Positions 41,001 through 63,005 of a DNA stretch of 64,000 nt are shown piece after piece. This DNA is from Paracyclopina nana. Taxonomy: Eukaryota; Arthropoda; Copepoda; Cyclopoida; Cyclopettidae. The notes beneath the pieces are model-generated. The model had not been told where the DNA came from and made no database searches. It worked only from the letters and a program-made list of their open reading frames with translations. The position numbers were made by a program, and so were the translations under genes. Location of the stretch: assembly GCA_019096065.1 (NCBI GenBank), contig JAGUCH010000009.1:1188001-1252000 (forward strand), written 5' to 3'. Numbering within the stretch: position 1 is the first letter of the stretch; each line of letters begins with the position of its first letter.

Positions 41001-44000
41001 CACCAGCGAGCCCCTTGAGGGGTGTCTACTGAGATGCGGGGTTCTGTGGGTGGGAGGGGGGCTGTAATGGGGCGCCCGGACGGGCACGTGTTGCCCTCGG
41101 GCCCCGTAGCGGGACTCGGGCGGCGGGGGCTCCCTGTAGGGCGGCGGGTCAGCCGGACTAGAGTTTCTCGGGCCGGGTGGGGGCCGGTAGGCTGGCGGCC
41201 TCAAGGCCGGCATGCTCGCCTGTTTTGAGAACCCGTACACTTCACCGTTGACTCCGGCGCCGGAAGAAGCCGCTGTTGCCCACGTGGGCATTTGTGTTGC
41301 TGATGTGGACTTGGGCAGGTGCCCGTTCGAGGTGGTCACGTGACTAGGCCGGTCAGGGTAGCTGTTGCTCGAGTCGCTGCCCGTCTTGTCCGAGCCCCGC
41401 CCGGAATCCGGGCTTAACCGCGATCCGCCGGATTCCGCATTCAATTTCGGCCCCCGGCCGTTTGGGGCTGAAGCGGCCGGTGGGGCAGCATTGGGGTACG
41501 AGGCGGCGGGCGGCGGGGGCTTCCACACCGCGGGCGGCTCGGCCGATTGTGATTTGGGTAATTGAGGAAACTTGGCCGCCCTTTGCACTTGGGGTGACAG
41601 CAAAGGGCCGACTTGCGGGTGATGGCTGGCCTTGTCCAAGGCCGACCTTTGCAGGATGAATTGAACGTCGTGTGCGTATTCCCCCCATTTTTGTAGCACC
41701 TGAAAGCAGCCTTTGGATTAGAGGGCCTCCGCAATCTAGCGTAGAGTAAACAAGCTAAAGACAACAAGGGCGGCTCGCAATGTTGTCCTAATTAGTCACG
41801 CAACCCTAATGAAAAACTAACACTGAATTCTGACGTGGTTTCTGAGAAAATCAGCTGTACTCATTTGGAACACTTTCCAAATGGGGTCAGCTGTTGCCTC
41901 CTGTATGCTACCCTATAACGCAGTAAAACGCAGGGTTCTAGAAATTCCTCCGCGACTTCGTTTGGAACAGTTAATGGGGGATTTTGACTAAGTAAAGTGT
42001 TCCAAATGAGTACAGCTGATTTTCTCTATGGGTTACCCTGCTTAACGTAGTGCTACGAAATCGCGGAGGAATTTCTAGAACCCTACGTTTTACTAAGTAA
42101 TAGGGTAGCATACAGAGGCAACAGCTGACCCCATTTGGAACAGTTCATGGGGGATTTTTACTAAGTAAAGTGTTCCAAATGAGTACAGCTGATTTTCTCT
42201 ATGGGTTACCCTGCTTAACGTAGTGCTACGAAATCGCGGAGGAATTTCTAGAGCCCTAGGAAAGCAACAAGCTGGCTCGCAATGTTGGCCCACATTAGTC
42301 ACGCAACCCTAATCAAAACAAAACGTTCCATGCAGGAGGATGGATCCGCTTTGATGGTGTACCCAATATTCCAATATGTTTGTCCTCTTTACCTTTAATG
42401 GATGTTCTTGAGGAGCCAAAAGCCTCTCGTTGTTTCTCCATCGTTCGATGAGGGTGAACCTCCCAGTTTTGCCTGTGGCATGGGCAAGAGCATAGACAAC
42501 ATCCTGAAAAACAAGGAGAAAAGGCCAATTTTAGGACTGCCATAGCAGGGGGTAATTGCTCCTGGGAGCCTTAGTAGCTTTTGTCATGCAAAGTAGGATT
42601 GGGGCCTTCATTGCACTTTCATGATTGATGAGACCAGGTGCAAAAGGTTCTCTCCTTTTTAACTGCTACTGCGCTACTTCATTTTGCCTATAATGTGGCG
42701 TTCATGTACCTATATTCAGCAAAGGCAATTTTATTGCCCACTAAACTATTCCATTGCTTTTTGACGATTGCTTATACAGTTTTTCAAATAAGTATATCAT
42801 TTTCACTTTGTTTAATGAGGCTCGATAGTCAACTCTCAGATTTACTTTCAGTTTCCCGAACGTCAGCATTTTTAGCTGTTGGTAGCATTTTACACATTGA
42901 TATGCCAAATGGCAAGAAGTCTTTCAAAGTGGAAGATTTGGCATCTCCTATGTATTGCTGGTGAACCGCAGCGTTTCCATATGTTGTTGATCTACGAGCG
43001 GGCAACTTTCTGGCTTGATTTGGTACCAACTCACAAATTTCACCATCATTTCTTGGCACCGAAAAGTGATGCCCTCCTCTCTCATTTGCGTTTCAAATTG
43101 GAGAGGATCCTTCGGTAGCCAATTAAAATGCCGTTTTTCTTTGCCATTTTGACATTCCCATTTCGTGGAAGGAAAAAAAATCAATCTCAGAAATTAGTTT
43201 GGATGGATTGCCAATGGAAATTTACCCACTGTGCAAAAATACAGTTTACATGCAAAAAAATTCTCCTGTCGTCGCCACAAATGTTAAAGATTTCCTGCAT
43301 AAAAGGGAAAATGGTCACTAAGTGCCAATATCGCTCGTTTATCTTCTTCTATGCAATTTCAGTGAATTTTGGCCAACTTCTTGCATTGCATTATGCAGTA
43401 CATCAACTAAGTCCAGTGTTCATCTACTGCAAAGCTACATAAAATTTTCTTACTTTTTATGGTTAATTTCAGTTTTGGAGGCTGAAAGCAAAGTTGCAAG
43501 ATGACAATCGCGTCTCATTAATTTTAAGCATTTGATCTAAAAAAGCCAAACAAAAAACAGCTGTTCGCGGCAGAAAACTAACAGCCATATAATTGAGTAG
43601 ATGAACACCACATTAAAGTGTGATACTTCAGCTGAGAAATTTTCGCCATTTTCCACTCAATACTGGCCACTGAAGTAAAAAAGCTCCCTTCAATCTAGAA
43701 AAAACCGAGCATCTCAAGAGAATTGAAACTTCACGCTTGCAGTTCTCGCATAAAAAGAACCCACACTGCACGGTGAAAAAAGGCGCAATAAAAACTTTTG
43801 CAGACCAAAAAAGTGGAGGGAAAAAAGTTGTGAATATTTTTTTGATATGGCATTTGAAAGGTGCCAAAAAAAAGAAGTTGCGATTTGGGAAGAGAAAAGT
43901 GAAAAATGACTGCCATGCATGAAAGAGTTCCAAATATGGGCCCAAGTCAACTTTCTACAAAAACAAACAAGAAGAAGTGACAAGTGACCTGTTTTGAGCT

Positions 44001-46114
44001 TGATTTGCTCACAATTTTCCATGTGAAGGAAAATGGTTATTGATGGTTGCACGCCGTCACTTTGACACTTTTATGGACCCGTGTGTTCAAAATCACTGCA
44101 TTTTCGCACACTACAATGTGTGTAGACCATAACACAGCCGGTGGGGATGCTTATTGTCTTGTCCATGCCATGACTGAAAAGAGCCTTAAAAATAGCAGCT
44201 CATTTCTGGAAGATGAGGAAGGAAGTGTTGAAACTTTGAGAGTAACAAAAGTTACTCTTAGGCTCATTATCTTCCGCGTCTTTGATCGTGACTTGGTTAC
44301 GGTTGTTATCGCTTCTTATTAACTGACATTGCAACCTCGTCAGTAAATAAGAACCGATAACAACCGCAACCATGCTACGATCAAAGACGCGGAAGATAAT
44401 GAGCCTTAGTAATTAAAAAGGCATGCAGAGTAGATCATGATGATGATGATGTGGTGTTCATCTACTGCAATCTTTTTTCTCCTTAATTTTGAAAGGCAAA
44501 ATAGTAAAAAAAATAACCTCTCTCTGTCTATCCCATTTGAGTCTTATAATTGGCCAACTTTGGCACATGGAACAGCAGAGAAGCCAGGCCAAAGTTGTTG
44601 CCAACTTTTTTCCAGCCAGATTGTTACAATAATTTTAAGAGCTAGAAAGTGTATTTGTTCAAAAGTATCTATTACCTATCTTTGAATAAGCAAATGAATG
44701 AAAGGTATTAGAGGAATGCTGCAGCCAAATTAAAGAAAGCAATCTCAGCAACAAATAGTCATAAGTCATAAGAAGTTACTTATTAGGGATTTACTCCTCT
44801 TGATTATGCAACGTTCAAATTAGTCTTTTTCTGCGCAGAAAATATGGCCATTTTACGATCTTCATTAGTTTATGTCGTGAGGTTTGAATCAAACTTCTTC
44901 ATGTCACGATTCACGAAGGAACTTTTCTCCCTTCTTTTTCTAGGGAGGAGGATGAAAAAATCCCTCGTCAGTTTCCCGAACTTTTGAAATAGATTATTAC
45001 ATAATAGCGAAAAGTCGCCGCCAGGTGGCGCTAAGAGTGGCCGCGATGAATGCTTGACACGAAGATTACCATCAAATGCATTTTCAACAGCAATTTTAAA
45101 AGCATTTTTGATTCCTTCGACTATAAAGCTTTTCTACATATTTTAGAGCCGTTTTTATTGATAAGATCAAATGAGAAAAAATCGTAAGCTGTTGATATTT
45201 CATTTGATTGATAGATTTAATTAGAGGTTTTGGGCAGAAAACAGCCACAAACTTGCCTAATATATTTTTTAGCTAATTTTATATTCTGTGTGCAGTGTCG
45301 GAAAAATACCAATGCGCAAAACCAGACACAAAATTGCTTGATTAGAAAATATAGCGCAAATTTCGGCCGATGAATCAATTTGTATCAAGTAAAATGCGCC
45401 TTTATACCAACTGAGATAAGGATAAAGAACTGGAAAAACCTTGGAATTTTTCCGGTCGGGTGGGCGGCAGTTTGAGTTTTTACAAACTGAGATGAAATGT
45501 GATTTGAAAACCAGCCAACCCCGCATGTAGGTTAAATAGCTGGATGTCATTTCCCAAAGTGGATAATCAAGCAAAGCAAGCAAAGAAGGAAAACCTCTTT
45601 GAAGCTTTTGAGCAATTTAATTTGTGTCAATCATGATGATGGAACTGCACACATTTGTGCCTATTCTGAGGGTAGTAGTAATATTTGGAGAGCAATTGGA
45701 TTTTCGCAGACATGAAAAGAGCGTAAAAAATCAATTGGGCCCAATTTTCTCCATTCAAGATTCACACAAAAGTGACGCAATTTTGCCCTCATCTTCCAAA
45801 AATACAAGCCAAAAATTAAAGAAAGCAACAAACATGAAAATTATGGAAGTAAGTAAAATGACAATTGGAGTCCCGCTGATTTCAGCCAGAAAATTGTAAG
45901 ATAAACAAAGAGCAAAATTGCTGAGATGAAGATGGAATGAAGAAGTAGCGCCACTGATGTGAATGTCAACAAAAAAAGTGGTGCCATTTGTGGTTTGATC
46001 TTTTGGTGGTAAGGCAACAGCAACAAAAAAAGGTCTTCTTACCTGACAAGTGGTTTTGTCAGTGACACCACAAACGATTCGTTGAATCCCCTCCACCCAG
46101 ACTTTGAGCTCCAT
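38001..46114 (-). CDS. RASSF8: N-terminal Ras-association (RASSF7/8-type) protein, 588 aa
   Basis: An N-terminal RASSF, linked in flies and mammals to cell junctions and growth control. Exons (minus): 46043-46114, 42393-42503, 40890-41699, 40128-40220, 39134-39426, 38538-38694, 38342-38471 and 38001-38101; total 1767 nt. The N-terminal RA domain (residues 1 to about 85) starts [18 protein letters not shown] and contains [18 protein letters not shown] and [19 protein letters not shown] proline/serine-rich linker of about 250 residues follows. Then comes a long coiled coil ([52 protein letters not shown]) and the C-terminal tag MGSPRQLEN...KNPHGVWV. The proline-rich exon is GC-rich. Fly Rassf8 is of similar length; RASSF7 is the alternative name. 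Several MITEs lie in the introns. Confidence 0.93.
39491..39879. mobile_element. Tc1/mariner-like MITE with TA target duplication
   Basis: The ends are CCGTCTGACCGTTCAAAATT and its near-perfect reverse complement AATTTTGAACGGTCAGACTG; the match extends for about 38 bases to GGGAATC. TA flanks both ends. About 389 bp, no transposase. It lies between two RASSF7/8 exons. Confidence 0.85.
40362..40602. mobile_element. AT-rich TIR element with internal degenerate repeats
   Basis: TTAAGGCACGCTATTT at the left and AAATAGCGTGCCTTAA at the right are perfect inverted ends. The interior repeats variants of TTATGCTATGAGCTATTTAAATAG in both orientations, and one more copy lies outside at about 40635-40678. 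No ORF. Confidence 0.7.
40730..40874. mobile_element. Near-palindromic 145-bp foldback MITE, copy 2
   Basis: The left arm GGCTTAGTCTCTTCTGGAGA and the right arm pair almost perfectly through CATAGTGACCAAGCCACGGTC to the middle. TAG is present on both sides. It has the same length and central block (TTCTTAT, AACC, CAGTACATAAGAA) as the copy at 44261. The right end is 16 bases from the donor side of the large RASSF7/8 exon. Confidence 0.85.
41762..42312. repeat. Complex repeat block bounded by 48-bp direct repeats
   Basis: A segment reading GGCTCGCAATGTTG...TTAGTCACGCAACCCTAAT occurs directly repeated at 41762-41810 and 42265-42312. Between them are nearly two tandem units of 173 bp (GTGTTCCAAATGAGTACAGC through GCGGAGGAATTTCTAGA) and a partial inverted copy at about 41841-41955. 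It lies in a RASSF7/8 intron. No ORF. It could be a composite foldback transposon or a local duplication. Confidence 0.75.
43415..43612. mobile_element. Short TIR element of the GTGTTCATCTAC family
   Basis: AGTGTTCATCTACT at the left and AGTAGATGAACACCACA at the right, about 198 bp apart, no ORF. It lies in the first coding intron of RASSF7/8. Confidence 0.6.
44261..44405. mobile_element. Near-palindromic 145-bp foldback MITE, copy 3 (TTA target duplication)
   Basis: GGCTCATTATCTTCCGCGTC pairs with its exact reverse complement at the right, and the stem continues through GATCGTGACTTGGTTACGG with a few mismatches. TTA flanks both sides. This is the best-preserved copy of the family seen at 8951 and 40730. 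Confidence 0.9.
45018..45031 (+). promoter_or_regulatory. CTCF-like site (CCGCCAGGTGGCGC)
   Basis: Exact match to CCGSYAGRKGGCGC, which differs from the usual CTCF core CCASYAGRKGGCRS at one position only. Confidence 0.55.
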
Positions 46115-48077
46115 TTTTCTCAGTTTAGTCTGGTTTAGTGCGAGTTGATCTCACAGCACAAATCATCGTTCAGGTTGCACCAAAAAAAAGCCTCTGCTTG
46201 TCATTATAATTGCTCTCGCGCCCCACCAACCACACAATAATACACACAACTTTTGGCACCTTAAGGGCCAAGTTTTTCCTCTTCTTCCTCTTCAGTTGTG
46301 TGCGAGGATCTTCCTCACATGGTAATTGAGTTCGACAACTTTTTTTGGCACTTTTTCACACTCGATGAGCCAATTTCCCAATGGAACCAGACGCGAGTTC
46401 AACGGCAAAAAGGACGATGATATCCTGGAAAAAATGAGAAACAGAGAAATTAAGGCTTTTTCAATAGTGCACAGTGGGCCATTTTCCCGCAAAAATAACT
46501 GGAACCAACTAACTTTTACAAGGTTCAATAGTAATCGGATTTTAATGCTGATACCCAACATTTGCTTTGATTTCCGCTCTCTTTTGAATGCAAAAGCTTA
46601 TTATTATGCTACTCTGAATGAGATCAAATGAAGAAGCTTCTGCACAGCAGTGGAAGCAAAACAAATTAAGCCCGCGCACTAATAAAACTTCCTTTGCTGC
46701 AAAAGCTACCGTGAAATCTGATACCAAAATAGTATCCAAATTTGAATCAAAGCGGAGGGGAAGAAAAGTGTAGCAGACCTAATTAGCCAAATTTTTAAGC
46801 TCCAATTTTTTTCTCAAAAAAAAAACTTCTCACAATAGAGCCAAAAATGTTCAAAAATAGCCATTTTCGCTGCTGATTCCCCTGTTATCACTTGATTGAA
46901 GCAATTTAACATCTGCTCACAATTAGCTGGTTTCTTTCTGCTTGGTTAGGCCAAATCAAACAAAAACTCACGACAATTTCACAGCTGCAATTTGATGGGA
47001 AAAAGATAGCTGTGCGTGTTGTTGGCGCTTTGCCGGTTTCCTTGCGACTGAATTCCGCCTTCTGCTACAGTTGTAAAGCGGCCCTGCATAAGACAAAATT
47101 GCTCCGAGTTGTAGCAGAGGAGAAAGCACCCAAAGTGACTGGACAGACTGTACATTTGCCACAAAAGTCAAGTGTGCTGCTTTCAAGCATGACACTCTCT
47201 TTTCCTCGCGCACAGCAATCATTAATGTGCACTAATGATCGAAATTTACTCGGGCTTTTTAGCTCGGCTCATGCTTGCTTAGTCCTGCAGTTGTCAGATT
47301 CTGCTTGGCTGACTTTCCGAGACTTTCCAAAGACTTTGACATGCTTTGTTTAATTCCTGAAATTCGGAGAGATGTCACAGAGACACAGTGAGCTCAAAAA
47401 GGTCAACAGCATGATGCTTTCCGAAGCTTTTGTTGACACACCTCCAATTGGGCTTTGCTCACGGAGGCTCTGGTAGTAATGATTTTTGCCGCTAGGAGGA
47501 GCTTATGATACCCCAGCTAATAGCATTGTAAGCTAAGCGGGCTGAAAATTGAATTTCGATCTTTTTCTGTTTGCACCCGCCCCGCTACTAGCCCCGATCT
47601 AAAAATATTGAACCTCCGATCAATTTAAAAAGCATCCAGATTTTATATATTTCAACTACTTTACTCTTTTTTCAGTCTTCTAATTTTTGAAAAGCAAGTT
47701 TTTATCTTGTTTTGTAGCTATTTTAAGGGCAAATTCAGTAATAATTGCATGCTTTGTAGGACAATTTGCAGAAGAAAATCACGCTTGCTCAAGTGTGGTG
47801 CTTATTGGAAAAGGCAGAAAATCTCTCCTTTCTTGACAAAAATGCCAAATATTTCGTTTTTTTAAGTCAAAAAGCCAAATGATAACGATTATGCGACGAA
47901 CTAGTTGAAACGACACTGAAAAAGAATCGGAGGTTACTTCTAATGCCATCTTTTTTACATTATTCGGAAAAATGTAACTACACCGTGAGCAAAGCCCAAT
48001 TGACGAGATTTTGAAGCTGCCGCTGCCAATCCGGCCCGCTTTGAAATGCGGCCGTGCAGCCCGCTGCGCAGGAAGGC

Positions 48078-48091
48078 GCGCCACCTAGCGG
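48078..48091 (-). promoter_or_regulatory. CTCF-like site (CCGCTAGGTGGCGC on minus)
   Basis: Exact match to CCGSYAGRKGGCGC on the minus strand, in a locally GC-rich patch (48020-48110). Confidence 0.55.
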
Positions 48092-49290
48092 AGAATCCCG
48101 GTGTGTCAGCCGAGAATTCTTCCAACTTCAGATGCATTCCACGTGACGTTTTGCCATTATTAAATTTCTTTGCTGTTACAAGTGGGACACATTTTATCAG
48201 AAAATGGGAGCTGTTATCACCAACTTTCTTCCTTTAAAAGCTGATTGCCTGATTTTCGAAACTTGCTTTTTTAAGGCGATTCACCAACTTCTTTGCAGGA
48301 AAATTAATCACGTGCAAAGATCAAGTTTGATGCTTTATTATTTTCTGCTACATCTTTTTTCGGCATGCCAGCATCAAAAACAGCAGAGAAATCAATTTTG
48401 CAGCCATTTTATGCTATGGAGCTGCCAGTCACACGTGGCAGAAAAAACAGCTGAAACGATCATAAAAAGAACGAGTTTTCTCGGCAAAGATCAGATTTCC
48501 TCCTTGGTAATAAATGCACACATCCACTTTTTTGTCGCAATTAATTCCATGTAACAGGAGTCAAAATGGAAAAAAATGTAATTTCATGCAAGACTAGAAA
48601 AAGTGATGCACTTCTTGAATAACAAAAAGAATGCGCAAGGAACGAAGCTGTCATTAGATATTGACAACTTCTCCAGAAAAACAAAAATACCTTGATTTCA
48701 AGGCTATGCTCCACTTGCTGATCATCTACGACATTTCATTTTTTTCTTTTTTGTGTGTTAAATTCTCGGGGCAATTTTCTAAAAAGAAAGACTTGGTACT
48801 GTTTTAGAGCTCGCCAAAATTGAAATTGATCTCGGATTTTTATCTAGGCAAATTCTTTTAGTTGTATATTGGCAACAAAGCATCATATGTGTTAGCTGGT
48901 GGTTTTCTCCGCCAAATAACCGTTCAATCTTGCGGTTCAACGGAAAACAAAATGATGTTGTTTGTCAGCTTATTCTTCTACTTCTTCTGCTCCTGCTGCT
49001 GCACTGGTGTGAAAAGTGAAACTTTTGCACTAATTTCCTGACTTTATTTATTATTTAGCTACACAGGAGCACTTGTTGTTGCCTACAAGTTCCCAAAGGT
49101 TCAGGACCTTCATCTTCCGTTTGCCAGCTCAAAAAAATCCCCACCAGATGTGAACAAACAATGTGGGAATAATCCAGGTTTTTAGTGGCCCCACAATTAC
49201 TCTAAGGCTTCTCGGACAATATTTAAGGCTTCCCTTTTATTTGCAAATAAGCCGAGCAAATGAAAAATGTCTCACACTGAATTAATTTCG

Positions 49291-49304
49291 CCGCCAGATG
49301 GCGC
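49291..49304 (+). promoter_or_regulatory. CTCF-like site (CCGCCAGATGGCGC)
   Basis: Exact match to CCGSYAGRKGGCGC followed by T, as in the usual CTCF core ending GCGCT. Confidence 0.55.
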
Positions 49305-50744
49305 TCTGGTGAGTTATTTTGTTAACAAAACCTGAGCTGAGCAAAAAATTGCTTCCCCCTTTTAGCAAGCAAAAAAGCGTAGCCTTGGGCCGAATTCGGT
49401 CATTAAAGAGGTTCCATTGATGAAACTTTCACAAATGGCTCTTTTTTTTATTCATTTTGGGCGGGTGGGGGAGCGTTTCTTTGGCACCACATTTAATCAA
49501 CATCCTGGCAATTTTTCGATTTGAATGCTCTTTTTTACATTGCAGCAGTATTTCTAATTTCTACCCCCACCCTAATCAATTTTCGGCTAAACCAATTTGT
49601 CTGGCGGGCTAAAAAATTCTTTCTTGTTAAGAAATTCGTGCAGTGGCGCCAGTGAAAGTGGAAAAGGGGTGAGCAATACACAAAAAGTGTTCCCAATTAC
49701 ATTGAAAGAACACAGGCCCAATTATCCGTGTAATGGATGGCAAAAATGTGCTCACCCTTTGGAAAGTACATAAATATTTCAAAATGAGCCATTCGGAATG
49801 AAAAAACAGACCATTGGGGCTTTTCTACCCTTTTTATCACAGTGTGACTTCTGGGGACTCTGATGGAGAAAAATTAACTTCTTGTAGAATGAGCTTTTTC
49901 TGGTGGGGATTTCCCTTACAAAAGCATTGCACATAAAACAAAGGGAAAAGGCATTCAGATGTAAATGAATGTTGCTGGAAAAATTGTACATTTTTTAACT
50001 CTACAAAGCTACGGTCGTAATTAAATGAGTAGTTTTGGGCTTTTCTCCAAGGATTTTACAAAATTCTGGTACTTGGAAGAAATAATCTGTCATTAAGGAG
50101 AGAGGCAATAACTTGTCATTAGGACACTTGAGGCCAATCTCGCTCGCACAGTGGAATGAGATGGAAAACTCGACACTTTTATGTATACTGGACCATGAGT
50201 GTGCACTTAGTGAGCCGTGAGCGTTCCAAGACATCTTACTTCTATGTCGGTGAAATTTGAGTTTGCACACTGGGTAATTTGCCCCGAAAAAAGCTACGCA
50301 TTTAAAATTGACAGCTCACTGAGAAATCGTATGTGGCATGAAAAACGCAACATTTTAGTTCCTAAGAATGAGTTTTTAGCTCCAGCTTTCCCCACAGTGG
50401 AGATGGTGGCTTAAAAAGAGCCACCCTTTACTGGCCCTTTATTTGGCTTCAACTCTTTCATTAGTTATTCAGATAAAAAAAGTGGGGATTTTTGGCCAGC
50501 AGCTTGCATGCAGCAGCGTCGTAAAAGTTTTCCCTTTTCTTAGGCTAAGCCTCTTTTTGAAGCTTTAAAAACCGGCTTGAATTTGCATATTTGTCAATTG
50601 AATCTGTCAACAATTGGAAAACCTTTCAAAATGCTAAAATATCAACCCTAGGTTTTGATTAATTTCTCATGTCAGCTTTTACAAAAATATCACGTAAACT
50701 AAAAAACTAGGGCCAACCAAATCAGTTATAGGTTGGTTAGGAAA

Positions 50745-51225
50745 TGTAAAGTAGGAGATTGGGCTGACTGGGAAGAATGGGTAGACTGGCAGACTGGGCC
50801 TGCATGGCAGACAAGGCAGGCTTGGTAAACTGGCAGACTTTGCAAAAAGGGCAGACTTGGCAGGCAGGGCAGGCTAGGTAAACTTGGCAGGCCAGTTCAA
50901 CTAGGCAGGCCAGTTAAACTAGGCAGGCTAGGTAAGCTAGGCAGGCTAGGTAAGCTAGGCAGGCTAGGTAAACTAGGCAGGCTAGGTAAACTAGGCAGGC
51001 TAGGTAAACTAGGCAGGCTAGGTAAGCTAGGCAGGCTAGGTAAGCTAGGCAGGCTAGGTAAGCTAGGCAGGCTAGGTAAACTAGGTAGCCTAGGTAAACT
51101 AGCAGGCTTAGTAGGTAGGGCAGGCTAGGTAAACCAGGCAGACTTGGCAAGTGGGGCAGGCTAGGTTAACTAGGCAGACTTGGCAGACTGGAAGGACTAG
51201 GCAGACTGGGCAGTCTGGGAAGACA
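50745..51225. repeat. 18-bp minisatellite (GGCAGGCTAGGTAAACTA)
   Basis: Between about 50880 and 51150 the 18-bp unit GGCAGGCTAGGTAARCTA repeats head to tail with few changes. It decays on both sides into looser 9- to 10-base units (GGCAGACTT, GCAGACTGG). The period is divisible by three, so a repeating open frame appears on the minus strand; it is not a gene. A CTCF-like core follows at 51245. Confidence 0.95.
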
Positions 51226-51244
51226 AGGCAATTAGGGGCGAAGA

Positions 51245-51258
51245 GCGCCACCTAGCAG
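51245..51258 (-). promoter_or_regulatory. CTCF-like site, weaker (CTGCTAGGTGGCGC on minus)
   Basis: The ten-base core TAGGTGGCGC is perfect; the upstream half differs at two positions from the other sites. Confidence 0.4.
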
Positions 51259-52082
51259 AATATTTTGGCCCAAATAAAGGCAATCTCAGGCAAAGTAGGG
51301 CATAACGTACCAACTTTGAAGCTGCCTAATGCAACAAACTTGAGTTCCTAAATTGAGCCTCAGAGATGATGCGGACAAAGGAGGGAATGAATTTCCATTG
51401 TGGAAGAAAAAAAGCAATTTCTTTCCCGCTGGTGCAAGGACATAAATGAGGTGCGAATTTTCAGAGTGGGCGCTTCCCACTGTGCATGATGATGCATTAA
51501 TGGCTCGGGTATGGTGTGCAAAAAAAACCGTGAAGAAAAAAACCTATTTGGCTAATAGAAATCTCCCTAAAAAACCACATTGGGCAAAAAGCATTTTAAT
51601 GACCACTGCATAATAGCTGAGAAAAAAATATAAACTTAAAAATACGTTCTCAATTTTTGGAAAGTGACTGCTAAACTAAAGCTCAATTGAGATAAGAAGA
51701 GCAAAAAAAAATTCTTGTACATTACAGTGTGAAAATTCGATATTGATAGGGCAATTTTTGCACTGTTTTCGCAGTGAGACGGCATTATCAGAAAGAAAAC
51801 AAAAGGAGGTCAAACTTTCACAAAAGTTATTGTTTTCTGACCACACACACACGGGCGAAGCCGAAAGCAAAGGTCACTTCAAAAATGCACTTTTTTGCAT
51901 CATGCATGTATGATTTTCTGATTTGAGCCCAGAGTATATACATTTATTTATATTGGTATAGGGGGAAGTCGTGCAAAAAGAAACTCAGTCATGCAAGGAT
52001 TGTGATACTCAATATACCAAATCATGACACAGGTCACCGGCAACAAATAAAGGGAAAATTAGCATTAGAGCTAAATATTGAA

Positions 52083-52096
52083 CTCCTAGAGGGCGC
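52083..52096 (+). promoter_or_regulatory. CTCF-like site, weaker (CTCCTAGAGGGCGC)
   Basis: The ten-base core TAGAGGGCGC is perfect; two mismatches in the upstream half. It lies 185 bases from the stronger site at 52268. Confidence 0.4.
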
Positions 52097-52267
52097 CACT
52101 GATGTCACTCGAAAAAAAGAGGCTCAGAGATCTTGAATTACTTCTCATACGTCATGCTGAGAAGAGAAAACGACATTGTTGAGCTTTGCTATTAATTTCA
52201 TGAGTAGGTGCTGATTTATGTTTACATTTGAGTTATTTGTGTTCAAGCTGAAAGAGCAGCAGCAGCA

Positions 52268-52281
52268 GCGCCCCCTGCCGG
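52268..52281 (-). promoter_or_regulatory. CTCF-like site (CCGGCAGGGGGCGC on minus)
   Basis: Exact match to CCGSYAGRKGGCGC. The core CAGGGGGCGC is the form most often seen in vertebrate CTCF sites. Confidence 0.6.
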
Positions 52282-54562
52282 CCAAACGTTGAATTTAGTG
52301 CTGCATATTTCCAAAAAGATACTACGTACATCAGAGTTCAGAAAGGCCACTTCAAAGGCCTTTTTAGAGGTGATTCAGACTTCAAAGAAAGCACTAAAAC
52401 TATATATGCTATGTATGGCTTCTTTTAAAGGGGAAATTAACCCTTTTGCCTGTATTTGATGCAGCCAGAGATAAAAAGTCATAAACAAAGTTGCGAATCT
52501 GGCCATATGCTTAATTTTGTGCAACCTTCTAGGACTATCTCTTCTAGCTTTGGAATAACAATGAGCTAGGATGGCAAAAGGCCAAATCACATTCAGTGCA
52601 TCTTGAAGGAAGCTCCAAAAATCACAATATGGCTGAAAGGCAAGCCAAAATAGTCAATAGCACACAATTCGCAGACTTTTGCTCCAACATTTAGGTCTTT
52701 TTTCATCACTTTTTTCAATTTTTATGATTCTAATATTTTTTGGCAAGTATCTTAGAAATGGGAGTTTTCCATCTTCCAGTTTTTTGCTTTCACTCCAAAG
52801 CACTGAAATGGAAGTGAAAATGCAAAAGTGCCTCAAATGCAATAGATGAACATCACATTTGGCCCCTTTTAGTTGCTGTTATCTACCTTCTTCTGCTGTG
52901 GACCTTCTAACTCTCACTACTATTTGTGTAGTAATCTCGAGTTCTGGAGTTGACAGCACCTTAATTTGGAGCAACTGAGACAGTTAAGTAACTGGAGAAA
53001 AATACCTGAATTTGGTAAGCAGCTCAGAAATAAGGTGGAAGTAGCAGGTGTTTGATTCTCTCCTGCAAGTGAGATCTGCCACAGCACAAAAACCTGGGCC
53101 ACATATGGTCACCCAAATGGCTCAATATTACCCACCATCTTCAAGCTATAATTAGGTTTTATATAGCTTTCTTTGAAGAAGTAGTTTTTTTTAATGCACT
53201 GATATGTTGTTGCATTATAATGCTTTTTTCCATGCTCTCTCAATTCTTCAGAGGGAAAAAGGTAGAGCACATGCCCACTGTGTGGGATAAAATGGACCAT
53301 TTTTCATCTGCTGCGGTGGCCAGTGTGCAAGCAAATCGACTTGCCACAACTAGGTTACATTTATTAACCCACAGTGGTGCAACTTTTTTTTGCTCCAAAA
53401 GCTTAAAAGAAATTTATGTACTGCTTTGACTGCATTACTCTCGTTTTCTCCCAGTAATCTAGATAACTGAGATGAGCTGGGTTGTAAATGGCAAAACATA
53501 AAACCGAAAAAGAAATTGGAAGTTATGGCCGCAACTTCTTCAGAGTGCTATTACATTTTTAATCCTCTGGCTTATGGTATATCCATTATGCAAGCAATAT
53601 GGAGTAATGCTACACATGCTATATATGCTATTAGAAAAACCTGCCAAGTTGCCCTACTAGCAATTTTTCTGCTAAAAAAAACTTTTTTAAGCAAATCTTC
53701 GTTGAAATTCCATTCGATGTTCCTTACCTAGGAAAAATACGCAGATGACTTTTTGTCTACACAAATCAACGAGGAAATGGCTTTCCCTATGGAGCTTTTT
53801 TAAATGCCCTCTGGGACCAATTGGGTCACACTAAGGTCACACTTTTTGGTGGCAGAAAAAGCTGACTGTAAAATATATGTAGGCTTGAGTTTGAGGCAAA
53901 GTTACGCAGATTTATCAAAGGCTTTTTGAGAGTGCATAACTGCATGATGGTAGGAGGATGGCATAATGATAGAATGATGGTTTTTCAAAGTCATTTTGAG
54001 CAAATTCAGCAATGTGAGTTAGATGATAAGGTATGATTTACGAGGGAACATAAATCGAGCTGCTTCAGTAGGCAAAAAAAACCAGACTCACAAAGTCTGG
54101 ACAGCTAACTAGCAATGTAATTCTGCCATTTCAATGCCCCCTCTTTTTGCTGTAATGAGAAAATGCTTTTAAGCAAAGTTGCAACCCAAGGTAATAACTT
54201 TTGCTCTTCAGCTTCTGATGAGGGCAAAATTATGCTACTTTTCTGCCAAACAATGGTGCATGAATCATCATCACTTTTTGGCTGGAAAAGTGATTGCAAT
54301 TCTGGAATTAAAACTAGCATGTGAAAGCTTTCTATTTTAACCACGAGGGAAATCGTTCATACCATATCCAAAAAAACTGGCCATATTTTCTATAATTATT
54401 TGGCCCAAGAAAACACAGGAATTACCTTGTTTTTTTAACAGATCAACTTTAGCTCCATCAAGGTTAAAAAATGAGCCTCCAGATGCATTTCTAATGCTGG
54501 AAACCAGCCAGTATGAGTGCCTTATCTTAATTTAGTCAGTGACTGTGAATAAATTTGCGGCG

Positions 54563-54576
54563 GCGCCCTCTAGCGG
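54563..54576 (-). promoter_or_regulatory. CTCF-like site (CCGCTAGAGGGCGC on minus)
   Basis: Exact match to CCGSYAGRKGGCGC, flanked by extra GC-rich bases. Confidence 0.55.
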
Positions 54577-54906
54577 CGGAAAAGTGAAGCCTCCTCATGG
54601 CTTAGCCATCAAAAGGAAGCCGAATTACAGATGGTAATTCCTCCTAATGCACCTTAATAACGACTTGCAACATGACTATTAGAGGAAAGGTAAACCCCGT
54701 AAAATATGGTGCCAAGGGAGAATTTTGTGGAAGCAGGAGCAGAAGGAAACTATGGAAGTATATGTAGTAGTGATATATAGCAGCAGATGGGAAAGCCACT
54801 TTCCTATACCACTTTCTTCTGTTATTGCTGGCTGACATCATAATACTGCCATTTTTGCTATTGAAGTCACGTAATCGAAGACACAATTTTCCCAGCCACA
54901 ATTTAT

Positions 54907-55404
54907 TGCGGTGCTCATCTGCTCAAGTCAGGAGGGAAAATCCTGACGTTACCAAATGTTTTCCTTTCTTGCTCAATTTCAGTTTTTTCGACATAAAACC
55001 AAATTGAAAGACCACAAAGAAAGACAATAGCCTTAGTGGAACTTAGTTGCGGTATTTTAGCACAGAGTGGCGCTTCAGTCGCTCATCGGGGCAGTCCGAA
55101 AAAAAATGCTCTAAAACTCGGTTTAAACTTAGCTGAAAATGCCAAACTCCCTTCAATGCGTCGAAATATCATCAAGTTTGCCTCAAAAGTCCATTAAAAC
55201 CCACTGAAACCCTTGAATTACGAAAATAATCTGCCCCGATGGAGCTCCCAGCGCCATCTCGCGTAGGAATTATCCCTACTCAAAACTGTTGTTCCACTAA
55301 GGCTATTGGCTTGGATTTGGAGGGGAAAAAATTTGCCTACCGACTAACCAAAAAATGTCGCCAAAACAAAGATAATGAGATAACGCTCAGATGAACACCA
55401 CATA
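54907..55404. mobile_element. TIR element of the GTGTTCATCTAC family with a nested element
   Basis: GCGGTGCTCATCTG at the left and CAGATGAACACCACA at the right. The separate TIR element at 55030-55303 lies inside. The pairing of these two ends is inferred from position. Confidence 0.4.
55030..55303. mobile_element. 274-bp TIR element with TA flanks
   Basis: CAATAGCCTTAGTGGAAC at the left (55025) and GTTCCACTAAGGCTATTG at the right (55308) are perfect inverted repeats. If TA is the target duplication the element starts at GCCTTAGTGG. The interior contains a weak CTCF-like core (GAGATGGCGC, minus, 55251) and no ORF. Confidence 0.65.
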
Positions 55405-55803
55405 AAAGCACTTCCCCACCCGGAAAGCAGACGCAAAAAAATCACCTTAGATTGATCCAAGTCGCAACTCTTTTGTTGTTTGAATGCTGTGAAAATGGCT
55501 TTTTTACTTCTCTTCCTTCGCCAAAGACCTCAAAAGCATTCTTTTCCAACAATCTCCCCTTTTCCCCGTGGGAAGAAAGCGAATTTTCCCTTACCTGAAA
55601 GGAGAAAAAATAATGGGTAACATTTCTCTTCCACATCTGTCCCCAGCAATCCAATTACATATTCGTACGTAGTGAGCAAATGAAGCAGCTGACTAATAAT
55701 AATGCATTGTTTGCTCAATCACAGGATTTATTCATACAGACATGGTGTAGAGCAAAGGGACCAACTCTGCAACAGGGTGCCTGAGTTATTGTGCTTCTAT
55801 CCA

Positions 55804-55968
55804 GATTGTCCCACCAAAAGCAGAGTAAAATTAACTCCATTGCTATGAGCAACATTAATTCTATGATGAATTTGGGTACATTCCATAACTGGATTTTGTG
55901 CCCGAGAATTATAGGCTCGGTTCGTACATGACGGCTGATTTGCTCCACTTTTGGTGGGACAATCTGTA
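55804..55968. repeat. 18-bp inverted repeat
   Basis: AGATTGTCCCACCAAAAG (55804-55821) and its exact reverse complement (55951-55968) are separated by 129 bases. It may be the remnant of a short foldback element. Confidence 0.6.
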
Positions 55969-56374
55969 CACATTCGAGGCCCAAGAAGAAAAGTTGCATT
56001 TCTCCTCAGGCCACCACAATACGACTACAATTCCAGTATATACCATCATCACCACTGAAGTAAGTCTAGAAAGCTCGATAAGAACAACGGCTAATCTATC
56101 GAAGTTTTACACCCAATAAAGATGCGCCTAATCCACGAGACGTGAGCGTAGAAGCACCCGACGGCCCATACTGGGTATTTGTAAAATCTCTACAGTTTTC
56201 AAGCAAAAAATCCACTAAAATATACAAAAAAGAGCAATATCTGAGTCTACTCCACACCAAGCATGTCAAGCATTGTATATCGGGAAAAAAGTAAATCTCT
56301 TTAGTATGGAGAATAGCAATACAGTGAATTATTTCAAAACGATGTCAGGTGAAGCAAAGAGTTGCTCATTAGAG

Positions 56375-57170
56375 CACAGAACAACACAGCGCAGTATAGC
56401 TCAGCGCAGTAAAGCGCAGCGCAGCAACGCAAAGTGCAGTGAAGAACCAAAGTAAATTTCAGTGCAATGAAGCACAGCGCAGTATATCACAGCGCAGTAA
56501 AGAAAAGAGAACTGCATTGGACCACAGCTGCACAGTGAAGTAAAGCACAGCGCAGTAAGACTCAGAATAGCGACGGAACCAAAGTGTGGAGGAGCACCGC
56601 GCAGGTAAGCATAGCGCAGTAAAGCACAGCGCAGCAAAGCACAGCGCAATGAAGTAACGAAGTAAAGCCCAGTACAATGAAGCACATCGCAGTATACCAC
56701 AGCGCAGAAAGGCACAGCTCAGTAAGACACAGCGCAGTAAGGTACAGCGGAGTAAGGCACAACGTAGTAAGGCACAGCGCAGTGAGGCACAGCGCAGTAA
56801 AGCACAGCGCAGTTAAGCACGAAAGTGAAGCCCATTGCAATGAAGCACATTGCAGAAAAACATGGCTCATTAAAGCACAGCGTTGTGAAGCAGCCACAGC
56901 GCAGTGAGGCACAGCGCAGTAAAGGAACAGCGCAGTGAGGCACAGCGCAGCAAAGCACAGAGTAGTGAAGTAACAAAGTAAATTCCGGTGCAATGAAGCA
57001 TAGCGCAGTATATCACACCGCAGTAAAGAAGAGAGAACTGCATTGGACCACAGTGAAGTAAAGCACAGCGCTGGAGGACTCACAATAGTGGCGAAGCACC
57101 ACCCAAGGAACCATAGCATAGAGAAGCACAGCGCAGTTGAGCACAGCGCACTGATGCACTGTGCAGATTA
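56375..57170. repeat. About 15-bp degenerate satellite (AGCACAGCGCAGTAA)
   Basis: Nearly 800 bases of AGCACAGCGCAGTAA and variants (GGCACAGCGCAGTGA, AACAGCGCAGTGAGGCACAG). The cleanest part is about 56700-56820. Longer-range similarity between 56460-56560 and 56990-57080 suggests a higher-order unit. Open frames of up to 185 codons here come from the repeat and are not genes. Confidence 0.92.
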
Positions 57171-57724
57171 ACAGAGAAGCATGCAAAAGTTTGGCACAAC
57201 AATTAGGAATGAGCTTCAGTAAGCAAGAAATGAAGAGCTGCTGCAAGTTGTTTGCAGTTTGCATTTTCCCCACAAATTCCTTCGAGCATTTGAATAAAAA
57301 TGCTCGTGGTTGACTAGATAAATATTTGCTCAGTGCACGGGCAATAATCGTTTATTTCCTCCATCCATTTTTGAAGAGAGTTGCCATTCAGCAGCGGTTT
57401 TATAAGAAACTTGCAGCATCAGCAGCAAATATAGCATTTCTCTGTTTTGGGCATGTAATTATTGCTGTATTGCCAAGCAGGCAAAATAAAGGAACTTGCT
57501 CATCTGAGACAAAATGTGTGGCTACTCAGTGCTACTGTCGTAGTAATGAGAGGACAACAAAGGTACTTGACACTGATGGATGTGACAAAGACTGAATATG
57601 ACATTGAGGCTTCAGAAGAACAAATTTTCTCCTTCTTCAGCCCCACTCGTGATTGTGCAACCAATTCACCCAGGGTCAAAATCTTTGATCGACACTGGAG
57701 CAAAAAAGCACACCTCCAGAATCA

Positions 57725-57924
57725 TGTCCCGTTCATCTACTTTATCATGCAAACAACGACATTTCAGTTCTTGTTCAACCTTTTAATTTTTTGGCAAAAT
57801 GACAAAGGCAAACAACCAAAATGAGACTCGATTGTCACATTGCAATTTTGCTTTTAGTTGAAGGTACCTGAAAAATTGAAGGCACTAGGAAAACATTTCA
57901 CCTTTTAGTAGATGAACACGGCAT
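57725..57924. mobile_element. Short TIR element of the GTGTTCATCTAC family
   Basis: TGTCCCGTTCATCTAC at the left and GTAGATGAACACGGCA at the right, about 200 bp apart, no ORF. Its outer bases resemble both the GTGTTCATC group and MITE family B. Confidence 0.6.
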
Positions 57925-60900
57925 AAAACAGCCTTGGCACGACAACGTCTGCAAAAGACTCTTTGAAGAGCGGCCTTTCGGACAATTTGGAGTACCTCCT
58001 TATAGCATTTCCTATTATTGCTTTCTAGCAGCCATTTTCCTTTTTTTCAAAAATAGCTAGGAGAACAGTTTTTGATACAGGGAAAAAACATTGCAATCAG
58101 TTCTCTTATCAATTGGATGAAAGGAGCTATATTTGCTTTGCACTGAAAAAAACAAAAAGCTTAACATAATATTTATATGCTTGTACGTACACCACAGTAT
58201 CATCAATCACAATAAATAAGCTGGCTTGCAAAGGGGAGGCAAAACATTTCTTTTTTCTGACATTATGTAACCTCCCTCTTTCTGGGCTATGTCAACACAA
58301 TTTGCATAGAGTACCACAAAAATGTTCCACTCTTGCTGAGAAATGACCAATTTTATGCTATGAGGCAGAAGTGGGAGAAGCCTCAGAGTGTGAAAAATGG
58401 GTCTTTGAGGCTCAGTGTCAAAGTGGATACCTTTGAAAGATTGCAAAGCTGCTTTTTCCTTATCTCTCAAGGGATATAGTAAAGTAGCAGAATAACTTTT
58501 TTCTGCTGCTGCAACATATCTGAAAATGACACCTACTTCATGTAGAATGTGAGAAAAATCACCTATAGAAGAGACTATGTAAAAATAGGCCTCTTAATGA
58601 GCCATTCATAGTTGGATGAATGAGAAGTTAATCAGCTTTTGCTAAGAAACAAAGGATGTCTCCCCAATCAACTTGAAAAGTGGCTCAATAACTTCCTTGA
58701 AAGCCATCAGGCAAAAAGCAAGTGTAAAATATGCAAAAGTTCCCTTGACACTTGACGGACAATCCAGCCTTAAATTATGGATGAACGCAAGTTTTCTTTG
58801 AGAAAATGTTTCTTAAGAATGGACCACATATCTTGATAAATGGGCGTGATGACAGACTAATGCCACTACTGCACCTGGCGTCCTTAAACGGAACTAGGCT
58901 CAACTTTTTTTACCTTTGGAGTAGGAGTAGGAAAGTTTGAGGCTTCTTCTTTTTAAGTGGTCAAACTGTAGTACACAGTGGTCAAACTTTGATAATCCCT
59001 TCTTCCATTTGAGTTGGCCACTCTTGACTTTTCTCAGCTAATTCGTGCTGACAACTGCATTCAAGATGATGATGAGTTTCTCTGATAAGAATTTGCTATC
59101 GTATTCCAAAGTCCCCATTTTGCTGTTGATCTATATAATATGCTCAAAAATGATGACTTTTGAACTGCCACAAAATAATGACCATTTCGAAAAATATTTT
59201 CCACTTTCACTTTTGAAATGCTACACAATTGGGAAACACAAGCTTAAGTAAGTTATGTACATATTCCATCAGCTTGCTGCAGAGTGTGAGTAAAAAATTC
59301 CCCTTTTGCATGAAAAATTGGCTCGCATCAGTGCACAGTGGGCTGAAATAATTTTGCTATTAAAGCCCTTTTTTCACGCTTTACTTTACGCTCAGTTTGA
59401 ACAGTTTTGAGTAGTGTACAGCGATTTTTTTTTTAAAAAAAACAGCGGTGAAGTGGCCAAATATGGTGTGTAAAAAAAAAGAGCTTTAATGTTTAATTTG
59501 AGCTTGCTAACAAAAGAAAGGTTTTTGTAAGCAGTACATAAAACCCACTGCGACTGCAGCGCCATCAAAACAAACAGCGGAACTTTCTGAAGCTTAAATG
59601 TGATGCGTTATATTTCCAGCACAGCTCATTTTTTATTCGAAAAAACAAAGTTGATTTGACAAGCGTGAAGCTTCCCATTTGTTTTGCCACTTTTCTAGGC
59701 TTTAGACTCCATAAAAGAATAATTTTACGCCATGATCAGAGTGGCATAAATCAATCATAAAAAGCGCCTTTTTTCCCATTCCTCTCACAATTTCGGGAAC
59801 GAGAGGCAATTTTGCCAAAGAAAACTGCTCAAGGATTTTGTGATTAGAAAAGTAGCACGACGACGATTTTCCAGCTGATCATCATCATCGATGAAAATAA
59901 TGATCACTTCACTCAGCAGTAGAAGAAAGTGAGGATGATTGCACGGTAGGAAAAGAGAGCATAAAAAGGCACCTGCCGGGGATTAATCGAGCAGCCTTCA
60001 CTCACACTTTTTCCAAATTAAAGGCAACGTTCAGCAATTGAAAAAATGAAATATTTTCTTCAAAAAACTAAATCAAAAATCCAATTTGCATTAATGTTTG
60101 GTTGAATTTCCCTTTTTAGCACACAAAAACCTAGATGAACTCCACATGAGGATTGAGCTGCTCCAAAAAATATTGGTAAAATAATGATTGGTATTTTACT
60201 GCTGCACACCTCACAGGAAACACCTGCACGCTGTTGTTTTTTGGACACTTTTTAATAGAGCAGAGCCTAAATTGGCTGGCCAGAAAGTGTCAAGCACCAA
60301 TCAAGCCATAAAATTCGACAAAAAAGTGAATTTCCGGGGCAATTCCGATTCAGGCCATAAAATGATTTGAAAAAATGGATATTTTCTATTTGGCCAATTG
60401 AGGCATGTCAATAGAGTGCTTTTGACGCGTAAAAAGAAGGCAAGCAGAGAAAATTGAGCTAACATCTCGTTATGCCGGATTTTTGCCCAAATCCGTCTTA
60501 TTTTTTTTCAGCTTCGCCAACTTCAATGATGATGTCATTTGAAGCTGCACTTGCCATTTCAAAATAAGGCTTTTAAAAAGTTTTCCATTTTGTAATTGCA
60601 CAAAATGCTACGCTTTCAATTCTGACAAATGTCAAGAGGTAAAATCTTCATTTTCATCACGGCAGTACGAACTGAAAATATGAGCTAATTTAGCCAAATT
60701 CAGTGAAGACTTCATGCACTTTTCTTTTGTCACGAGAAGGGCGTGCCACGAATGACACAAAAGTTGCTGATTACCATCGCTGATACCAATATGCATAAAT
60801 GCAACTCCTTTTTCACTATGGGAAAAAGCACCAATAAAAAAAGTCTCCAAGGCTTCAAAAAATGGCTCTTCAAAAACGCCTTAATTTTCCAAAAAATAGA

Positions 60901-61808
60901 TAGTACAAATGAAGCAATTTTCCTATATGGAGGAGTTTTGGGGATTTTGGGGATTTTTGGCGCTCTGTTTGCCCAGTGTGCAGAATCTGGAGAAATGTAT
61001 GACGAGGAGAAAACTTGACAGCTCATTGGACCTTCCTCATTAGCAACACAAGCAAAGCAATCATTAAGAAATGCAACTTCATTATTTTTGTTTGTTGCGA
61101 CGCTGCTGCCGGCTCCGGAGGGGTGTGCAAACATTGCATTTTGGCAAAAAATCCCGCTCGCTACGAAAACCTCTTGAGTGTGGCAAATGTTGGACATTAG
61201 AGGCCTAGATAGGCCGCATTTGCCCCCCGCCGAGGATCTATGAAATGGATGCAACATGATGAAGCTCGTTGAAATGCCAACCCTTGCATAATTGGGATTA
61301 GAAATGCTTGTTGCCCAACTTGGCTGGAAAAAATATGGCCTAGAGAGTGATGCAAAAATACGTCCAATTTTATATCGGGCAATTAAGCAATAGCCCATAT
61401 GAAGGTTGGAGCAAAATAGCAAAAGTGCATCAAATTCCAGGTTTTTTTTCGTTGCAGCAGTTCAATTTGTATCAATATTCGGGGGCTTTGGGTTTGATCC
61501 CCGAGTGACCGGAAAATGGAAAGAAATGCGACAATGCGCAATGTTTACATGTACTAGCATCGATTTTTCACAATTTATAGCACATGCCACGTGAAAATGG
61601 CAGGATCGGATATCAGGGAAAAAATCCGCGGATTGAGTTTCATCCTGAGCGCTAAGACCTTGTTAAAGAAGTCTCAAAAGTTTTTTTTTTTGTCAAAGCA
61701 ACAAACACACCATTGAAATTGGACTCCAAATGACTCATTGCAGTTTCACTTTCACGCACACACCAATAACAACAACATCGATCAACAGGTTCATTTTTTT
61801 CGGCTTAC

Positions 61809-62260
61809 CTTCTATTTGGGGACGAGTTGAGCGCCCATTGAACCAGGTGGCGCTGGCGTCGCTCACTTAATTTTCCAAAACAAAAACACTCTTTTCGAAG
61901 CACTTTTTCATATGTGGCACGGAAGAAATGGCAGCAACAAAGTCTTGCGCAGCTGAATTCACTTGGACTGAAATTGAGCTGAAATGGTAGACTGACGACG
62001 ACCTGAGCTGAACGCTCACCTGGCGGGCTGAGGGCGGGTGGGCAGGCGGGCAGGTGCGGCCAAAACGAACTGCTCGTCGCGAAGAAGTAGGAATCGTAGA
62101 TGAAATGGCGGGCCTGCCCTCCGAAACTGCTCACGCTCGCCCTGAGCAGACTGACAACCAAAAGCCAAAAGAAGGAGACCAAAAGAAAAATCCTTCGACT
62201 TTGCTCGATTTTAGGCGTGCTGCCATCATTGTCCCGAAGCTTATTTCCGAACCCAAACAT
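61809..62260 (-). other. Possible non-coding or 5'-end exon of a minus-strand transcript
   Basis: A GC-richer stretch on the minus strand ends at AGAAG followed by GTAAGCC, a good donor. An open frame of 151 codons covers it but shows no known domain and runs into a stop just past the donor. It could be a distal first exon of RASSF7/8, whose start codon is 15.7 kb downstream, or of an unrelated transcript. Confidence 0.3.
61840..61853 (+). promoter_or_regulatory. CTCF-like site, weaker (GAACCAGGTGGCGC)
   Basis: The core CAGGTGGCGC is perfect; the upstream half differs at two positions. It lies beside the donor of the possible minus-strand exon. Confidence 0.4.
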
Positions 62261-62836
62261 CGATGCTTTTCAAGCTGCCGGGAATTTTCTTAGTTTTAAG
62301 TGCTCCGTTGCATTTTTCTACGGTCACAACTCCAAAGCTTCAGAATTGCCATTATTTTTTTAATTCTCAATATTTTTTTATTTCTTAGGTTTTTATTGCT
62401 CTCGTCATTTCTCAAAAACACTATGATTATTTAGTTAAAATAGAATTCAAGTTTTTTGCCCATGCATTCTGAGAGACAGAAAAAATCGTTTTTCCGAGCA
62501 TATGTTATTGGAGGATTTTTTATTGGAAAATTGGGTTCTTCTCAAATCAACTCGGATGTATTAAAGCAAACTTTGAATCCATCGATGAACTTTGGCTGCT
62601 TTGGAAATCGACTCATCTCTAATTGGAAGGCGAACGCGCGGGCAGGTGCAAATGCACAATTCTTACCTGTCCAACTGTCCCATTGGCGAAGGCATCGTTA
62701 CCAGAACATGACAATCGGCTCAGTTTGGCGTTTGTATTCAAAATGCGGCTATTTCCACGCAAAGCAATTCCATGCCGCGCTGTTTTACTATTGGTACCTG
62801 GCCGATTTGCGCAAATCGCCAATAATGCGGCATCTC

Positions 62837-62850
62837 GCGCCATCTAGCGG
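62837..62850 (-). promoter_or_regulatory. CTCF-like site (CCGCTAGATGGCGC on minus)
   Basis: Exact match to CCGSYAGRKGGCGC, about 130 bases upstream of the possible plus-strand start codon at 62981. Confidence 0.55.
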
Positions 62851-62980
62851 CGAATTCGGGAACTTTGCGCGGCTTTTTTTTAATGCTGCCCCTTTTTTCC
62901 AAGTTTTTCGCTCGGGCTACAGACATTCGAGAACTTTTGTGGAAATCCGAAGCTCGGGTGGATGGGACGACAATTCTTTT

Positions 62981-63005
62981 ATGGCAGACTCGGACAATGT
63001 AGTAG
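62981..63005 (+). CDS. Possible first coding exon of a gene running off the right edge
   Basis: ATGGCAGACTCGGACAATGT begins an eight-codon stretch (MADSDNVV plus one base) that ends at a strong donor, GTAAGTAAC. The MADSD start and the donor look like a typical initiating exon. The same frame is open upstream to about 62456, which could be 5' leader or an extended N-terminus. No further exon is in the window, so the product is unknown. Confidence 0.35.

Follow-up and report, generated by a model that had tools for sequence, protein, structure and literature searches.

The 64-kb window analysed here (C9:1188001-1252000, G000) belongs to the 91.95-Mb, ten-contig assembly of Paracyclopina nana and was scanned whole for the CTCF-type motif CCGSYAGRKGGCGC. 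It holds exactly six matches to the full motif, which together with one near-consensus site are spread over 18 kb beside a RASSF8/10-type gene. We read these seven sites as a homotypic cluster of predicted CTCF sites that would give the 5′ territory of the RASSF8-type gene a redundant boundary, a reading to which we give a probability of about 0.5. The stretch probably belongs to a known type of insulator; its binding, its insulating role and the identity of the shielded gene are features we infer. In the proposed mechanism, the animal's CTCF would occupy several of the predicted sites and, bound to this redundant set, would form a boundary for which no fixed orientation is needed. Such a boundary would isolate the promoter and regulatory DNA of the RASSF8/10-type gene from a dehydrogenase gene upstream.

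All six full matches lie between 45 and 63 kb of the window: 45018-45031(+) (CCGCCAGGTGGCGC, matrix score 27.7) in intron 1 of the RASSF8-type gene, 48078-48091(-) (CCGCTAGGTGGCGC, 30.0) upstream of its ATG exon, 49291-49304(+) (CCGCCAGATGGCGC, 28.6), 52268-52281(-) (CCGGCAGGGGGCGC, 25.6), 54563-54576(-) (CCGCTAGAGGGCGC, 25.6) and 62837-62850(-) (CCGCTAGATGGCGC, 27.5). Their strand order is + - + - - -, and successive gaps measure 3.1, 1.2, 3.0, 2.3 and 8.3 kb. The score matrix was built from 67 distinct sites outside the window, with an assumed leak given to the fixed core columns, so its scores are relative. Seven window matches reach a score of 20 or more, all of them between 45 and 63 kb; the seventh is the near-consensus site at 51245-51258(-) (CTGCTAGGTGGCGC, 23.0), a match to the core just past a minisatellite of 18-base period. 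Next in score come 34077(-), which lies outside the cluster, at 18.9, and 47489-47502(+) (CCGCTAGGAGGAGC) at 17.7, a weaker candidate absent from the preliminary description of this DNA. Lower still are 55251-55264(-) (ACGCGAGATGGCGC, 15.5), which fits the pattern GAGATGGCGC, and two core matches, 61840-61853(+) (GAACCAGGTGGCGC, core start 61844, 13.4) and 52083-52096(+) (CTCCTAGAGGGCGC, core start 52087, 10.6), the latter at a level also reached in shuffled sequence. Away from the cluster there is an extra core, TAGATGGCGC, at 22292(+), and the direct scan found no CCA form of the motif anywhere in the 64 kb. The preliminary description had listed the same six full sites, the weaker cores at 51245(-), 52083(+) and 61840(+), and GAGATGGCGC at 55251(-), and had seen no full match in the first 45 kb; the scan recovers every one of them at the same position and strand and agrees on the empty 45 kb. 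Two minisatellites also lie inside the cluster, one at 50806-51230 with an 18-base unit, GGCAGGCTAGGTAAACTA, ending 15 bases short of site 51245, and one at 56387-57028 with a 15-base unit like AGCACAGCGCAGCAA.

The motif is strongly enriched in the genome as a whole. The full form has 362 matches (171 forward, 191 reverse) against none for the reversed-pattern control, and the core YAGRKGGCGC has 4168, a total that takes in tandem arrays, against 240 for its backward control. We take this enriched motif to be the CTCF motif. The preliminary description had singled out a G in place of A at position 3, and the substitution is indeed present at all six sites, but it is no peculiarity of the cluster: G is the usual form in this genome, with 362 matches against 177 for the other bases (10 in the control), which among 100 matches listed are 71 A, 25 T and 4 C. 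The 14-mer originally described is thus near the genome's own consensus. Outside the core, preferences are weak: 74 distinct sites, of which six are in the window, favour T directly after the motif and T at the second and third columns ahead of the G-rich column that precedes it. A one-mismatch search gave 774 matches in total, those listed all being exact. The core resembles the form described for insect CTCF; a search of open papers on AGGTGGCGC with CTCF and Drosophila found none. Density of the full motif is uneven by contig, with 60 sites on C7 (7.1 Mb) and 39 on C1 (17.8 Mb) among the 351 sites listed. Judged from positions only, what appear to be tandem arrays with the CTCF core or the full motif in every unit also lie at C1:1157510-1160325 (ten copies at a spacing of about 312 bases), C1:988099-988608, C7:321837-322504 and C9:176560-176965; such arrays could concentrate CTCF.

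Cluster statistics use 351 of the 362 matches; the other eleven are CCGCCAGRKGGCGC on C9 beyond 1237304 or on C10, and while none falls in the window, they could enlarge a cluster elsewhere. Base composition predicts about 0.0013 full motifs per 64 kb, or about two in the whole genome; the preliminary description had given about 0.01 per 64 kb. Taking the genome's own density (362 in 91.95 Mb) as the null raises the expectation to 0.25 per 64 kb and 0.07 per 18 kb, and gives a Poisson probability of 1.7e-10 for at least six sites in 18 kb. The general clustering of sites makes this value too generous: of 341 gaps, tandem copies counted, 46 are under 5 kb, against 2 percent expected. The preliminary description had proposed comparing local with genome-wide density, and on that comparison six sites in 18 kb is the maximum, shared with C7:1523159-1538681; over 25 kb the C7 cluster reaches seven. 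For simulations, sites less than 1 kb apart were merged, leaving 333, which still contain two non-overlapping runs of six in 18 kb. No run of six arose in 2000 uniform placements (in which the lengths of C2, C4, C6, C8 and C10 were estimated, C4 about 4 percent and C8 about 9 percent too small) or in 2000 that jittered the sites by up to 250 kb, the largest run being five. The core is likewise concentrated, with nine copies in the cluster interval against about 0.8 expected from a genome total that takes in tandem arrays, and matches scoring 10 or more number 11 in 44-64 kb and 4 in the first 44 kb, against 1-5 per shuffle when the window was shuffled five times.

A candidate reader of these sites is encoded in the genome. 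The finger segment of vertebrate CTCF has a single outstanding match, at C3:4997170-4997949(-), with 56 percent identity (E 1.1e-78); read by eye together with its flanking exons, this locus encodes eleven fingers across several exons. Fingers 3 and 4 are identical to those of vertebrate CTCF at helix positions -1, 2, 3 and 6, finger 5 has one contact change, and finger 7 keeps its arginine and aspartate with positions 2 and 6 altered. Under the usual zinc-finger code, GGC is read by finger 4 and GRK by finger 5, and finger 7 would presumably turn its arginine towards motif position 3, where G fits. Whether the genome encodes an eleven-zinc-finger CTCF was a check the preliminary description had proposed, and the CTCF-like C3 gene, with its conserved core-reading helices, fits it. 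We infer orthology of this gene to CTCF from sequence comparison. In the accessible text of one study, CTCF is inferred for the panarthropod ancestor and CP190 for the ancestor of Pancrustacea (PMC5094011).

The ATG exon of the RASSF8/10-type gene, at 46043-46114(-), was recognized by eye and encodes 24 residues at the start of an RA domain; further exons on the same strand occupy 38313-42503, the second coding exon starting from about 42503, the third at about 41700 and later ones extending to about 38.3 kb, with borders set by eye and the last segments assigned to the gene presumptively. The RA domain joined by eye from three exons matches PF21712, the RASSF8-10 RA domain (E 7.2e-15), which supports the neighbour earlier named as RASSF7/8 in the form of a RASSF8/10-type gene. 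Given the ATG exon at 46043-46114, site 45018 falls in intron 1 and the other five full sites lie upstream of it, within 17 kb. These five occupy a stretch with little coding signal (46115-64000) that extends beyond the window's end as far as a short-chain dehydrogenase gene on the minus strand, which has a segment at C9:1253801-1254022 (PF00106) and probably another reaching down to C9:1253538, some 2.7 kb from the last site. The cluster accounts for most of the DNA separating the 3′ part of the dehydrogenase gene from the 5′ part of its RASSF8-type neighbour, and part of it perhaps lies within a long 5′ untranslated intron of the latter.

In a codon-usage scan the coding fraction is 0.27-0.29 over the first 42 kb, a figure inflated by training of the codon model on 16 stretches there, and falls to 0.02-0.04 over 42-64 kb. 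The region had been called gene-poor, which fits its coding signal but not the presence of the RASSF8-type ATG exon inside the interval. As candidates for hidden genes, ten open frames between 43.7 and 63.0 kb were searched and rejected, none having a Pfam family at the cut-off; codon scoring in 44-64 kb yielded only weak candidates near 61.9-62.3 kb, of which one was tested and had no Pfam match, and no known structured RNA (Rfam family at gathering score) was found in the window.

Four other clusters were sampled for the same property. The one at C7:1.52 Mb, equal in density to the window's, has coding fractions of 0.00 and 0.07 in two 10-kb pieces (20 of about 24 kb read) and in this respect favours the boundary. 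At C8:2.47 Mb the fraction is 0.03 (10 kb read), so that three of the five clusters, the window's included, have little coding signal in the parts read. The tandem-array clusters at C7:322 kb and C9:175 kb fall outside this comparison. The full extent of the C7 sister cluster is C7:1514932-1538681, with seven full motifs in 24 kb. The C8 cluster (C8:2473247-2482469) holds four full motifs within 9 kb; they surround a lone exon whose immunoglobulin-like match is below the Pfam cut-off, and the cluster possibly lies inside a long-intron cell-surface gene. A wider proposition, that arrays of CTCF sites in a small number of gene-poor islands, densest here and on C7, act as strong orientation-independent boundaries around selected genes, is one we regard as unlikely and put forward tentatively. 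If true, island boundaries would represent a non-vertebrate, perhaps ancestral, mode of CTCF insulation in a genome where most sites sit singly in gene-bearing DNA.

Several observations weigh against a boundary. The sampled clusters are not uniformly poor in genes: one is gene-dense, at C7:4.99 Mb (L076), with a coding fraction of 0.33 and a Ric8 gene (7 of 16 kb read), and one is intermediate, at C4:1.21 Mb (L078), with 0.19 (7 of 22 kb read). Ordinary sites lie in normal coding DNA, 66 site-centred 3-kb loci having a median coding fraction of 0.18, with none in 15 of the 66. Shuffles of the observed gaps produced six or more sites in 18 kb in 5 of 2000 runs. The excess of matrix matches scoring 10 or more is less than twofold, at 5.5 per 10 kb in 44-64 kb against 3.1 around ordinary sites (60 extra matches in the 191,664 flank bases of the 66 loci). 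In the C3 protein, fingers 6, 8, 9 and 11 differ from vertebrate CTCF at two or more contact positions and finger 7 at two; finger 6 is altered at three, changes for which we have no explanation. No orientation rule is apparent either: the 71 neighbour pairs 1-20 kb apart, a count of neighbouring sites and not of mapped loop anchors, comprise 19 convergent, 18 divergent and 17 + 17 same-strand pairs. A convergent-loop code is unsupported by these orientations, and the weight that the preliminary description had placed on convergent pairs finds no support. In the accessible text of an echinoderm study, domain borders likewise lack an orientation pattern, and whether the vertebrate mode is derived is left open (PMC13317027); an annelid study reports no clear direction between neighbouring CTCF sites in Dimorphilus (PMC7854359, available part). 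In the same annelid text, the CTCF motifs of that compact genome are mostly at promoters and are read as gene-regulatory rather than architectural (PMC7854359), and in the accessible part of a mouse study clustered CTCF sites are nearer transcription starts than single ones (PMC6945661).

The mouse result fits the chief competitor of the boundary, in which the CTCF-bound sites would be promoter or enhancer tethers within the RASSF8-type gene's own landscape, activating or timing the gene and not separating domains. We consider it somewhat unlikely. In its favour are the placement of one site in intron 1, with the other five no more than 17 kb upstream of the ATG exon, the promoter motifs of Dimorphilus (PMC7854359) and the coding surroundings of ordinary sites; the spread of the sites over 18 kb, with no focus near one point, speaks against it.

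Appreciably less probable is a redundant or near-neutral accumulation, in which long noncoding DNA would merely let CTCF sites arise and persist with little local function. The length of noncoding DNA leaves room for this, the gap shuffles reach six sites in 18 kb as noted, and the available part of the mouse study describes clusters rich in species-specific sites, whose loss has no detectable effect on local expression (PMC6945661). Set against it are the 4000 uniform or jittered placements that never reach six in 18 kb and the first 6 kb of the window, which also lacks coding signal in tiles and yet holds no full site. Recognition by a different C2H2 protein with the same motif, and not by the C3 CTCF, is very improbable: the CTCF query has 179 matches genome-wide, among them a large zinc-finger expansion mainly on C5, but the ten next-best, which lie in that expansion, are only 34-37 percent identical against 56 percent for the C3 gene, whose recognition residues in fingers 3-5 are nearly unchanged. 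The C5 expansion itself is a dense run of C2H2 open frames at about 6.8-7.6 Mb.

That the 14-mer belongs to a dispersed transposon family, which the preliminary description had named as a refutation of its proposal, can practically be set aside: some cores do sit in tandem arrays, such as the ten-copy array on C1, but no sequence is shared among the flanks of the 66 loci sampled (400 bases, masked), apart from two overlapping pairs that have local duplications (L004/L005 and L022/L023). These loci are the first-listed places and not a random sample, and about 290 of the 362 sites lie outside it; within it, and among the window's own sites, there are no shared flanks of the kind a motif-carrying repeat family would leave. 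When 1-kb pieces (500-base flanks) around the window sites were compared with 73 loci, the sole match was a 47-base stretch that includes the motif, apart from the minisatellite beside 51245, which matches itself. One element of about 150 bases, at 44257-44410 in the 44-64 kb part, recurs in the rest of the window and in L074. A 398-base element at 39487-39884, in an apparent intron of the RASSF8-type gene, has inverted ends of about 125 bases that are 76-78 percent alike; a copy 94 percent identical lies in an intron of the CTCF-like gene (L009:2291-2686), and L014 and L011 hold partial copies. The element resembles a young non-autonomous DNA transposon.

Elsewhere in the window, a second RASSF-type gene lies at 23072-23821 (RA and Nore1-type SARAH domains), and two similar cysteine-rich open frames at 15691-16149 and 18422-18775 are perhaps duplicates, the latter having no Pfam match at E 0.01. 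TTAGG repeats, with 9278 overlapping matches genome-wide, sit at both ends of C1 among those listed; repeats of this kind point to an arthropod.

Titles and abstract openings of the open literature on CTCF in Daphnia, insects, mosquitoes, arthropods, mites and chelicerates contain no description of such a cluster, and a search on CTCF, RASSF8 and insulator returned nothing that looks related. Whether CTCF in early animals worked through orientation-dependent loops or orientation-free boundaries is unsettled, and both scenarios are left open in the available text of the echinoderm study (PMC13317027). A compact genome that combines a sharp motif and an eleven-finger CTCF-like protein with a few dense clusters, and whose neighbouring sites show no orientation bias, offers a convenient test case.

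The fly CTCF core ends in GGCGC, as does the core here. The insulators of the Drosophila Bithorax complex, such as Fab-8, also involve the CTCF of an arthropod-type animal (PMC2749850, available part); they neighbour Hox genes and are named as insulators, whereas the cluster described here, known from its motifs alone, neighbours a RASSF8/10-type gene and follows a consensus that prefers CCG at its 5′ end. In the accessible text of the mouse study, CTCF clusters are defined by a spacing of less than 10 kb and are concentrated at domain borders (PMC6945661). The present cluster resembles them in having several redundant sites, each less than 10 kb from the next (1.2-8.3 kb for the six full motifs); it differs in that the mouse definition applies to bound sites, mapped by chromatin immunoprecipitation sequencing and compared with domain borders, and here to motifs only, in a 92-Mb genome. 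Dimorphilus gyrociliatus, as far as the available text describes it, is alike in keeping CTCF in a compact genome with no clear direction between neighbours, but its open-chromatin motifs are mostly single and at promoters, whereas here many motifs share 18 kb of DNA that has little coding signal (PMC7854359). CTCF clusters and fly CTCF insulators are thus known kinds, and the cluster in this window is a new dense example.

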